Below, piece by piece: positions 12,838 through 26,026 of a stretch of 64,000 bases of DNA (the stretch's first letter is position 1; the number at the start of each line of letters is the position of its first letter). The position numbers and the translations under genes were made by a program. The DNA lies in NCBI GenBank assembly GCA_020199775.1, contig JAIVJZ010000041.1:310001-374000 (forward strand). The letters are read 5' to 3'. This DNA is from Acidobacteriota bacterium. Its GTDB lineage: Bacteria > Acidobacteriota > Blastocatellia > Pyrinomonadales > Pyrinomonadaceae. Below the pieces are notes generated by a model. The model was not told where the DNA came from, ran no database searches, and worked only from the letters and a program-made list of their open reading frames with translations.

Positions 12838-13076
12838 CGGCAGCCATGTGCCCGAAGACGGACAGGCCGCCCGGCGCGTCAATCGTTCATCCCTTCACGC
12901 ACGCAACTCGCCCCGCCGGATGTTCCATCGATCACAAAAGGATTTACGCTCGTCGCGACCGGACGTAATATCCGCAACTTGTCCCGGCCGCCCGCGACGC
13001 CCGCTTCCGGCGATCCGGCGGGATATGCACGCCCGAACAGTTCACAGCATCCCAATGTTTCCGCGACGGAGTGTGG

Positions 13077-13508
13077 ATGAGGACGCAACTCTTATACTTT
13101 TCTTTCTTCGAACGCCGACGCGAATATGCGGCTCTGTTCCTCCGTCTCATCATCGGCTCGTTCATCATCTGGGGCGTGCAGGACAACGTGTTCAGCCGCG
13201 CGCAGATGGAAGAGTTCGCACATTTTCTCGGCGCGCGCGGCGTCCCCTTCCCGCTGCTCGCGGCCTTCCTTTCGGCCTACACGCAGTTCGTCTGCGGCAT
13301 CCTGATCCTCGTCGGGGCGTTCGTCCGGCTCATCTCGATTTTCTTCATCATCAACTTCGTCGCGGCGATCATCATTGCGCATCGCGGCGACAGTTTTCGC
13401 GGCATGTTCCCCGCACTCCTCATGATCTTCGTCGGCTTCTTTTTCCTCTTTCACGGGGCGGGCAAGCCTTCGGTTGATGAGTGGTCGGCACGACGCGGCA
13501 AGCGTTAA
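13077..13508 (+). CDS. DoxX family membrane protein
   Basis: A 143-aa protein with four hydrophobic helices and the DoxX pattern: RLIIGSFIIWGVQDNVF, a charged cytoplasmic loop with PFPLLAAFLSAYTQFVCGILILVGAF (split: PFPLLAAFLSAYTQ, FVCGILILVGAF), and GMFPALLMIFVGFFFLFHGAGK. DoxX proteins are quinone-linked or redox-associated membrane proteins of mostly unknown function. The start at 13077 has GGAG 5 bp upstream; a GTG two codons earlier is also possible. It is monocistronic as far as can be seen. Confidence 0.8.
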   Translation: MRTQLLYFSFFERRREYAALFLRLIIGSFIIWGVQDNVFSRAQMEEFAHFLGARGVPFPLLAAFLSAYTQFVCGILILVGAFVRLISIFFIINFVAAIIIAHRGDSFRGMFPALLMIFVGFFFLFHGAGKPSVDEWSARRGKR

Positions 13509-13567
13509 TTCAGGCCAAACTCGCCGCACCGCGTTCAAGTGAAACGCCGCCGGGCACTGGTATGAGC

Positions 13568-13597
13568 TTGACACGGGCTTTGCCGCGCGCTTATTTT
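13568..13597 (+). promoter_or_regulatory. Promoter of the phenylalanine hydroxylase leader
   Basis: TTGACA (13568-13573) is followed after 17-18 bp by TTATTT/TATTTT (13591-13597). Transcription would start near 13604, about 33 nt before the leader-peptide start. Confidence 0.55.
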
Positions 13598-13636
13598 AGA
13601 TTTCACGCGCCGCGGTTTCCGGCGCGCCTGACAAAG

Positions 13637-13744
13637 ATGTTAATGCACCCGAACAGTTCCTATCGCTATTACGGCTATTACGGCTCGCTCTCCGCACGGA
13701 GGGATGGGGCGGCGATGAACTGTCGGCGCGTGCTCGTCATGTAG
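13637..13744 (+). CDS. Tyrosine-rich leader peptide upstream of phenylalanine hydroxylase
   Basis: A 35-codon reading frame (or 33 codons from the second ATG at 13643). It contains SYRYYGYYGS: five Tyr codons within seven codons (13661-13681), using both TAT and TAC. It ends at TAG 13742-13744, 22 bp before a Rho-independent terminator, and the next gene makes tyrosine from phenylalanine. This is the layout of a ribosome-mediated attenuator: with enough charged tRNA-Tyr the ribosome passes and the terminator forms; with tyrosine shortage it stalls and the gene is read. CCGAACAGTTC before the Tyr codons can pair with GAACTGTCGG after them. The antiterminator pairing was not resolved and no strong ribosome-binding site is visible. 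Confidence 0.65.
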   Translation: MLMHPNSSYRYYGYYGSLSARRDGAAMNCRRVLVM

Positions 13745-13766
13745 CGCAAACGCAGACTGATTTCTT

Positions 13767-13820
13767 GAACCGGCCACTTCCCTTCCGACGCGGGAGGACA
13801 AGTGGCCGGTTCTTTTTATT
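13767..13820 (+). terminator. Attenuator terminator before phenylalanine hydroxylase
   Basis: A 13-bp perfect stem (GAACCGGCCACTT at 13767-13779 and its complement at 13800-13812) is followed by TTTTTATTT. It lies between the Tyr-rich leader peptide and the gene start at 13858. Confidence 0.88.
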
Positions 13821-13857
13821 TCACCTTCGATACAGTCCGACGATTGGAGTTTCAATC

Positions 13858-14748
13858 ATGTCACAGGAACAGCAGCTATCGACCGCCATCATTACCGAAA
13901 TCGCGACGCGGGAAGATACCGCATCTCACGCCTTGCCGGAAGCACGGCGCGCGCTCGTCAAACTCGATCCAGACCACCCCGGCTTTCGCGACGTGGCATA
14001 CCGCGCGCGGCGCGACGAGATCGCGGAGATCGCCCTGCGCTACGAGCCGGGTTCGTCCATCCCCGACGCGCCTTACACGGAAGAGGAACAGCAACTCTGG
14101 CGCACCGTCCGCGACGCGCTCCGGCCGCAACATCAGAGCCACGCCTGCGCCGAGTATCTGAAATGCGTCGAGCGACTTGGTCTCCCGTGCGACCGGATTC
14201 CGCAGTTGCGCGAAGTCTCGGAAAAGGTGCAGGCGTTGAGCGGCTTTCGTCTCGAACCCGTGGGCGGGTTGGTCGCGCCGCGCGTCTTTTTGGAGTCGCT
14301 GGCGAACGGCGTGTTCCTGTCGACGCAATACATCCGTCACCACTCGACACCGCTCTACACGCCCGAACCCGACGTGGTTCACGAACTGCTCGGCCACGCC
14401 GTGCTGCTCGCCAGCGAGGGCATAGCCGAACTCAACCGGCTCGTCGGCGAAGCCGTCAAGCGGACGACCACGGAAGAGGCTCTGGAACGGCTCGCGCGCG
14501 TCTACTGGTTCACAATCGAGTTTGGCGTCCTCAAGGAAGCGGGCGAGGTCAAAGCCTACGGCGCGGGGCTGGTGTCTTCGGCGGGAGAGTTGGAGGCGAT
14601 GCGGCGCGCGGAACTGCGCCCGCTGGATTTGGAGGCGGCGGCACGGCAAGAGTTCGACACCACGGACTACCAACCCGTCCTCTTTTGCGCCGACTCATTC
14701 GAGAGCATGTTTCAGAACTTGCGCGACTACCTGATACGCTGGCCTTAA
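13858..14748 (+). CDS. phhA: Phenylalanine 4-monooxygenase
   Basis: Pterin- and Fe(II)-dependent phenylalanine hydroxylase that makes tyrosine from phenylalanine (296 aa). The iron ligands are visible: His175 and His180 in PDVVHELLGHAVLLA, and Glu221 in YWFTIEFG. The pterin region (VGGLVAPRVFLESLANGVF, YIRHHSTPLYTPEPD) is intact. The length fits the bacterial single-domain form without an ACT regulatory domain. The start at 13858 has GGAG about 9 bp upstream, only 38 bp after the attenuator terminator. Control by tyrosine supply through the leader is inferred from layout. Confidence 0.95.
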   Translation: MSQEQQLSTAIITEIATREDTASHALPEARRALVKLDPDHPGFRDVAYRARRDEIAEIALRYEPGSSIPDAPYTEEEQQLWRTVRDALRPQHQSHACAEYLKCVERLGLPCDRIPQLREVSEKVQALSGFRLEPVGGLVAPRVFLESLANGVFLSTQYIRHHSTPLYTPEPDVVHELLGHAVLLASEGIAELNRLVGEAVKRTTTEEALERLARVYWFTIEFGVLKEAGEVKAYGAGLVSSAGELEAMRRAELRPLDLEAAARQEFDTTDYQPVLFCADSFESMFQNLRDYLIRWP

Positions 14749-14771
14749 GCTCACAGCGCGGTTCCGGCAAT

Positions 14772-15536
14772 CTACTTTTTGAGGAAGCGCGCGATGCCTT
14801 GCCGGCAGTCTTCCGTCATGCGTGCGATGGCGTTGAGGTCTGCGCCGGATTGAAGCGCGGCGTCGAAGGTCATGCCGTCCATGTGATACAGCAGGCGTTT
14901 GGTGAGCATCACGGCCGAGCGGCTCACGCGCTCAAACCCGGCGACATATTGTTCAACTTCCGTCTCAAAACTCTCGTCGTCGAACACATGATTGACGAGA
15001 CCGAACGCGGCCGCCTCTTCCGCGCCGACTTCCGCGCCGCGCGTGATCAGTTCGAAGGCGCGCTTCTCCGAGACGTTGCGCCGCAAAATCGCCATCACCA
15101 TCGCGGGCACGAAACCGATCTTCACTTCCGGGTAGCCGAAGCGCGCCGAACGCGCCGCGAGCACGAGGTCGCAGGCCGTCGCCAGACCGCACCCGCCCGC
15201 CAGAGCGCGGCCGCGCACGGCGGCCACCACCGGCACGCGCACGCGCCGGATGAGCGCGAACAATTCCGCGAGCGACTGCGCGTCTTCGAGGTTTTCCGTG
15301 ATCGAACTTTCGGAAATTTTTTGCAGCGCGGAGAGGTCTGCGCCGGAACAGAAGTCCGCGCCCGCGCCCGTCAAGACGACGACGCGCACGGCGTCGCTCT
15401 GGTCGGCGCGTCGCAAGGCGTCTTTGAGTTCGGCGATGAGCGCGTCGTTCAGGGCATTGCGCTTTTCGGGACGGTTGAGCGTCAGCAGCGCGACCGCGCC
15501 TTCCGCAGTGTAGATCAGTTGTGACTGCTCGTTCAT
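14772..15536 (-). CDS. Enoyl-CoA hydratase family protein (methylglutaconyl-CoA hydratase-like)
   Basis: A full-length crotonase of 254 aa. It has oxyanion-hole motifs CSGADLSAL and AGGCGLATACD. The first hydratase Glu is replaced by Gly, while the second is kept in FGYPEVKIGFVPAMV. Loss of the first Glu with an EVxxGFxPA motif is seen in methylglutaconyl-CoA hydratases of leucine degradation. The carboxyltransferase at 20282-21943 would fit that pathway. It is the last gene of the minus-strand group with the epoxide-hydrolase-like gene and the AtuA pair. The exact substrate is inferred. Confidence 0.82.
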   Translation of the reverse strand: MNEQSQLIYTAEGAVALLTLNRPEKRNALNDALIAELKDALRRADQSDAVRVVVLTGAGADFCSGADLSALQKISESSITENLEDAQSLAELFALIRRVRVPVVAAVRGRALAGGCGLATACDLVLAARSARFGYPEVKIGFVPAMVMAILRRNVSEKRAFELITRGAEVGAEEAAAFGLVNHVFDDESFETEVEQYVAGFERVSRSAVMLTKRLLYHMDGMTFDAALQSGADLNAIARMTEDCRQGIARFLKK

Positions 15537-25805: not shown

Positions 25806-26026
25806 AAAGGATGGCAGAGGGATATCCGCGAAGCCGCTCCGAAGCCGTAATTGAACCTGCACTCAACAGGTGGGTGTCCTTTTGTGAGCCGCGGCCTTTG
25901 GCAGTTCCTTAACGATGAAGGAATGCACTGGCTATCAGAGCGGCGTCGGACTCCCTTATCAACGGCATTGGCTCAACATGGGAAATCGGTGACGAACCAC
26001 GCAGAAGACTTCCCTCAGCCAACTCG
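25806..26026 (-). ncRNA. ssrS: Probable 6S RNA
   Basis: About 220 nt on the minus strand directly downstream of zapA, the classic 6S RNA neighbour. The fold has the 6S plan. A closing stem pairs GGCTGAGGGA near the 5' end with TCCCTCTGCC near the 3' end. A large central bubble has a small 3'-side hairpin (ACCTG-loop-CAGGT). A long interrupted terminal stem (GGGAGTCC, GCCGC, GCCAGTGCATTCCTT on one side) ends in a 7-nt loop. An upstream TTGACA and TATGCTAGTAT support transcription from this strand. 6S RNA binds the housekeeping RNA polymerase holoenzyme. The ends are estimates. Confidence 0.75.

Follow-up and report, generated by a model that had tools for sequence, protein, structure and literature searches.

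Why should a small frame rich in tyrosine codons, followed by an intrinsic terminator, lie ahead of phhA, a gene whose product makes tyrosine? This arrangement is found in a window of 64,000 nucleotides, the whole stretch of DNA analysed here, from a member of Pyrinomonadaceae in the phylum Acidobacteriota, and the original prediction read it as ribosome-mediated attenuation. From the comparative analysis, the phhA leader very probably acts as a ribosome-mediated attenuator of transcription, which responds to the level of charged tRNA-Tyr and thereby governs tyrosine synthesis via phenylalanine hydroxylase. Both the Tyr codons and a mutually exclusive antiterminator are conserved, in support of the attenuation reading, and the apparent absence of TyrA from the draft genome adds a physiological reason for it. 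The locus is made up of the following elements.

13071-13508, + strand (the strand of phhA): DoxX-like gene, upstream neighbour of the leader
13568-13597, + strand: promoter-like pair of the sigma-70 type, TTGACA-18-TATTTT (-35, 13568-13573; -10, 13592-13597)
13637-13744, + strand: leader peptide ORF of 35 codons (ATG 13637; alternative ATG 13646; TAG 13742-13744)
13661-13681, + strand: putative control codons Tyr-Arg-Tyr-Tyr-Gly-Tyr-Tyr
13684-13693, + strand: region 1, 5' arm of the protector (anti-antiterminator) hairpin, starting 2 nt past the last Tyr codon
13698-13724, + strand: region 2, partner of region 1 in the protector or of region 3 in the antiterminator (from folding and alignment)
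13767-13786, + strand: region 3, 5' arm of the terminator or, alternatively, 3' arm of the antiterminator (from folding and alignment)
13792-13812, + strand: region 4, 3' arm of the intrinsic terminator (from covariation)
13813-13821, + strand: U-run of the terminator (TTTTTATTT); U-runs also follow the hairpins of the relatives
13846-13849, + strand: Shine-Dalgarno-like GGAG of phhA, read directly from the sequence
13858-14748, + strand: phhA, phenylalanine 4-monooxygenase of 296 aa, the predicted regulated gene (ATG 13858; from NCBIfam, Pfam and PDB)

The promoter-like pair, the Tyr-rich frame, the 13-bp stem with its T-run and phhA were all found where the prediction had placed them, and in that order. 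The promoter-like pair matches the consensus at 10 of 12 positions with an 18-nt spacer and is the sole such site in 13000-14900, where 0.3 would be expected. It is identical in both of the sampled genus mates (L002 and L003), and about one-third of the relatives have pairs matching at least 9 of 12 positions at a similar distance. Conceptual translation of the leader ORF gives MLMHPNSSYRYYGYYGSLSARRDGAAMNCRRVLVM, and the starts and stops of the relatives' leaders align with it (for example, MLTQPNSSYRYGYYYGSLSARRDG). No clear Shine-Dalgarno sequence was read upstream of this ORF. The cluster of five Tyr codons in seven is unique in the six frames of the 64-kb window, for which a first-order Markov model gives an expectation of 0.0 (60 simulations).

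The identity of the downstream gene is supported by 264 bits against NF008877 (NCBIfam, phenylalanine 4-monooxygenase; cut-off, 247), by 286 bits against PF00351 and by a phenylalanine hydroxylase as the best PDB match. TyrA (prephenate/arogenate dehydrogenase, PF02153) was not found in the 92%-complete draft of the window genome, with 14 of 14 controls positive, or in the drafts of two genus mates, and homogentisate dioxygenase (PF04209) was not found in the window genome, such absences from drafts being no proof. Because neither TyrA nor homogentisate dioxygenase is recognisable, phenylalanine hydroxylation by PhhA is probably the route to tyrosine in this genome, and induction of phhA upon tyrosine shortage would then make sense. 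Phenylalanine hydroxylase has been established as a route of tyrosine biosynthesis in other bacteria, Dyella and Legionella (PMC7311316). Across the order, only 17 of the 119 draft genomes have a PF02153 match above the cut-off. The idea that phhA and tyrA strictly replace one another was rejected, since TyrA occurs in 5 of the 22 genomes without phhA and in 12 of the 97 with it, which is a tendency only. Prephenate dehydratase (PF00800), present in 68 of the 119 genomes, is also absent from the drafts of the window genome (G000) and its genus mates (G039 and G040), so that phenylalanine may be imported in this genus or made by an unrecognised enzyme.

In the 97 phhA-containing genomes of the order the gene falls into two subfamilies; products of the first are about 60-84% identical to the window protein and those of the second about 45%. 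The Tyr run, protector, antiterminator and terminator precede phhA at 32 of the 38 first-subfamily loci, in many genera. At L005 and L027 the leader is clipped by contig ends with the rest of the module kept, L030 has a degenerate leader, and L024, L026 and L038 have no leader. The leaderless phhA of L024 and L026 lies directly behind a frame read as a candidate trpA, which suggests that the gene was transferred to a trp operon, with loss of its original attenuator. Tyr is kept at the final two Tyr positions in 29 of 30 leaders, and the Tyr codons of the leaders are TAT (91) and TAC (81) in about equal numbers. Rates of difference at the three codon positions are 0.14, 0.21 and 0.38, as expected of a translated stretch. 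Judged from this pattern, the Tyr codons are kept as an amino acid, not as DNA. The terminator is kept in relatives as well, so that the check proposed with the prediction came out in its favour. The genes upstream of the leaders differ even within the genus, and DoxX is lacking even in genus mates; as the upstream gene varies and the terminator stays, the terminator travels with phhA. No conserved leader was seen in 12 loci read from the second subfamily, or in the scanned phhA relatives from Myxococcota, Deltaproteobacteria, archaea and actinobacteria, and the system is thus confined to one clade.

The GC-rich terminator stem of 13 bp is formed by pairing of 13767-13779 with 13800-13812, immediately before the U-run. 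This hairpin alone has a folding energy of -34.0 kcal/mol in the window sequence, and the fold of the leader has a z of -4.1, with none of 200 shuffles equally stable. The terminator (13767-13821) is not picked up by a simple consensus scanner, probably because the interrupted stem makes a long apparent loop, and is detected by folding. In an alignment of 33 phhA leaders, the terminator (3:4) has 92.9% of cells paired, 16 of 20 pairs changed on both sides and 63 compensatory cells, a covariation reached by 0 of 500 shuffles, and the protector (1:2) has 89% of cells paired and 6 of 10 pairs changed on both sides, with 1 of 500 shuffles as high, although these shuffle counts are guides and not probabilities because the related leaders are not independent. 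The mutually exclusive antiterminator (2:3), which shares the 5' arm of the terminator (region 3), has 85% of cells paired in the alignment versus 38-51% when slid, and for nearly all sequences it is the structure of minimum free energy when the stretch from region 2 to region 3 is folded. Its covariation is modest and weaker than that of the terminator and the protector, as expected for an arm, region 3, that is constrained by two partners. The energy of the 2:3 duplex is only mildly better than that of shuffles for the window sequence alone (P = 0.085), and its mean z over the 33 related sequences is -1.2. The alternative fold for which the prediction had called, an antiterminator exclusive with the terminator, thus exists and is conserved in relatives.

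In the free leader RNA of the window, the protector is folded and region 3 is left unpaired, open for the terminator. When the RNA is free only from 13694, regions 2 and 3 pair at -34.7 kcal/mol before region 4 exists; with a spacing of 2 nt, a ribosome halted at the Tyr codons would occlude region 1. At equilibrium the full-length RNA retains the terminator even when region 1 is masked (-57.0 kcal/mol), so that antitermination would have to be under kinetic control, as it is in known attenuators.

The following scheme is built on what can be read from sequence, namely the parts and their order, their conservation, the covariation of the protector and the terminator, the second possible pairing and the apparent loss from the genome of TyrA. 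Transcription would start near 13604, and a ribosome would translate the leader peptide. When Tyr-tRNA is ample, the ribosome would pass the Tyr codons and reach the stop codon; behind it region 1 would re-pair with region 2, which would also be partly covered, and region 3, being free, would pair with region 4 to end transcription at the U-run. Under a shortage of Tyr-tRNA, the ribosome would stall on the Tyr codons and cover region 1, region 2 would pair with region 3 once this is made, region 4 would be left without a partner, and polymerase would continue into phhA. If the leader is not translated, the 1:2 protector would form and termination would be the default. PhhA would then probably be made only when tyrosine is short. 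Translation of the leader, stalling of the ribosome and kinetic capture of the antiterminator are the steps that we infer in this scheme.

The leader peptide might be translated and yet exert control by another step, such as peptide arrest, Rho or translation coupling, and not by the choice between 2:3 and 3:4. Relatives also share the C-terminal half of the peptide (GSLSARRDGxAMGCRR), which could mean a functional peptide; however, it overlaps the covarying regions 1 and 2, so that constraint on the RNA explains its conservation. Besides, complete modules contain an intrinsic terminator with a U-run, which makes Rho unnecessary, and the leader stop lies far from the phhA match, at a spacing that varies among loci (84-352 nt). 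Such a step is improbable as the basis of control. Still less probable is a translation-independent RNA sensor, either a T-box that binds tRNA-Tyr directly or a tyrosine riboswitch. Tyr T-boxes are known in Firmicutes (PMC1262725), and the phhA leader is strongly structured, but a search of Rfam gave no match of the leader at gathering and no T-box, riboswitch or leader family (His, Trp, Phe or others) at E up to 5. Conservation is at the codon level, with the Tyr run kept and the third positions free, and the sister leaders described below swap the amino acid to suit the gene, as a ligand pocket would not. That the terminator merely ends the DoxX-like gene lying upstream on the same strand and that the Tyr-rich frame, with no clear Shine-Dalgarno sequence, is a chance ORF is the least credible of all and can be dismissed, because no relative has DoxX upstream of its leader, the Tyr run and the terminator persist beside phhA, about 0 such clusters are expected per 64 kb and the Tyr codons vary synonymously.

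In support of attenuation by a translating ribosome, leaders of similar build lie ahead of other amino-acid genes. Covariance models of the phhA leader (R1) and of a generalised leader (R2), the E-values of which are rough, found homologous-looking modules in 53 of the 119 genomes of the order and in a small number from other parts of the phylum. A leader with FYYFAFTYRFF precedes genes for chorismate mutase/prephenate dehydratase and DAHP-synthase-type genes (L167-L174, L182-L186, L218 and L226). Phe/Tyr-rich leaders with terminators lie ahead of pheA/aroF-type genes at L201, L222 and L224 as well, and such leaders range over Pyrinomonadaceae and one distant family of the phylum. A YHCCCYCACCACC leader precedes cysteine synthase (L175, L176, L200, L202, L203, L208, L209, L213 and others) and an MCCCACMDC leader precedes sulfite reductase (L204, L206 and L207); Cys-rich leaders with terminators stand at L175-L177, L180, L200, L202-L211, L213 and L217, before cysteine synthase or, at the three loci just named, sulfite reductase. 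A His-rich leader, HHGYWHHHH (GHHGYWHHHHRGG), with a terminator is found at L216 (G093:C16), and the downstream frame was read as hisG. These targets were named from Pfam for one sulfite reductase and one cysteine synthase and from PF00800 matches for pheA, and by reading for the rest. The same antiterminator geometry folds in all 17 pheA, aro and cys leaders tested. In the window genome the phhA leader is the only R2 match, and a second copy of the leader was rejected there, the other R1 matches being the phhA terminator on the opposite strand and a bare hairpin without a leader on another contig (L181). Weak model matches at L179, L214, L215 and L219 are plain terminators without a leader ORF and were dropped.

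Common descent of the phhA leader and its sisters is plausible, and similar constraints could also yield similar parts. There is perhaps an even chance that they form a modular attenuator family of Acidobacteriota, in which one ancestral leader was copied to amino-acid genes and its control codons were rewritten. On this reading phhA received Tyr codons, pheA and aroF-type genes Phe/Tyr codons, the genes of cysteine synthase and sulfite reductase Cys codons, and hisG His codons. Such a family would include the Tyr leader that precedes a diiron enzyme gene in another two Blastocatellia, and, if true, it would point to an unrecognised tyrosine-linked function of this enzyme.

The latter leaders, at L220 (G179:C33) and L237 (G467:C62), are Tyr-rich (MKMNRNSYRGFYYYVSS and MLKNYAPNRFYYYYRLKTGRDG) and have the same kind of terminator, and their hosts are two Blastocatellia of different families. 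The gene after them encodes a heme-oxygenase-like diiron enzyme (PF14518), the nearest PDB relatives of which are 4-chloro-allylglycine synthase and CADD-type 4-aminobenzoate synthases. G179 has no phhA (PF00351) and has a TyrA match. From its leader codons, the diiron enzyme may be tyrosine-linked.

The classical ribosome-mediated attenuators are trpL, hisL, pheL and pheST of E. coli and other Proteobacteria (see the literature cited in PMC1262725). Most descriptions of attenuation by codon runs come from Proteobacteria and Actinobacteria, and some from Firmicutes. Like the proteobacterial systems, the phhA leader has a short ORF with codons for the amino acid of the pathway, a target gene within that pathway, a protector beside the control codons and an antiterminator exclusive with an intrinsic terminator. 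It differs from them in that its control codons are for tyrosine, its host belongs to Acidobacteriota, its target is phenylalanine hydroxylase, an oxygenase usually thought to be catabolic, and it shares no sequence family with them in Rfam. Actinobacteria have leader-peptide attenuators for trp, ilvB, leuS and cys (PMC1262725), which are similar in combining leader peptides and terminators outside Proteobacteria, and their Cys leaders parallel the sister Cys leaders found here. On the other hand, no Tyr leader has been reported there, and mycobacterial cys leaders lack obvious terminators (PMC1262725), whereas the Cys leaders of Pyrinomonadaceae have them. The Tyr T-boxes of Firmicutes also control aromatic genes in response to charging of tRNA-Tyr, which the phhA leader is predicted to sense, but T-boxes bind tRNA directly, without translation. 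In Pseudomonas, phenylalanine hydroxylase is likewise regulated, there by the transcription factor PhhR, which activates phhABC for catabolism of Phe and Tyr (PMC1173090), unlike the RNA attenuator proposed here, which is predicted to induce phhA on Tyr shortage for biosynthesis.

Open-access papers (most subscription papers lay outside the search) yielded no attenuator with Tyr codons, no attenuator of phhA and no case assigned in Acidobacteria, and almost none of the Acidobacteria attenuators predicted in a 2010 survey had associated functions (PMC2965389). The mechanism follows the classical pattern; what appears to be new is which amino acid is sensed, which gene is controlled and in which phylum, and the priority of a Tyr/phhA attenuator in Acidobacteria is not certain. 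One phylum would thus have a Tyr-sensing attenuator on phenylalanine hydroxylase together with sister attenuators for Phe, Cys and His. In this family of soil bacteria, mostly without TyrA, the biosynthetic role of bacterial phenylalanine hydroxylase becomes testable via its regulation. For these mostly uncultured hosts a practical rule follows, that the codons of the leader peptide state the amino acid served by the next gene, which can help to assign unknown genes such as that of the diiron enzyme.

Elsewhere in the window, 25819-26010 on the - strand gives a 6S RNA match above the Rfam gathering score.
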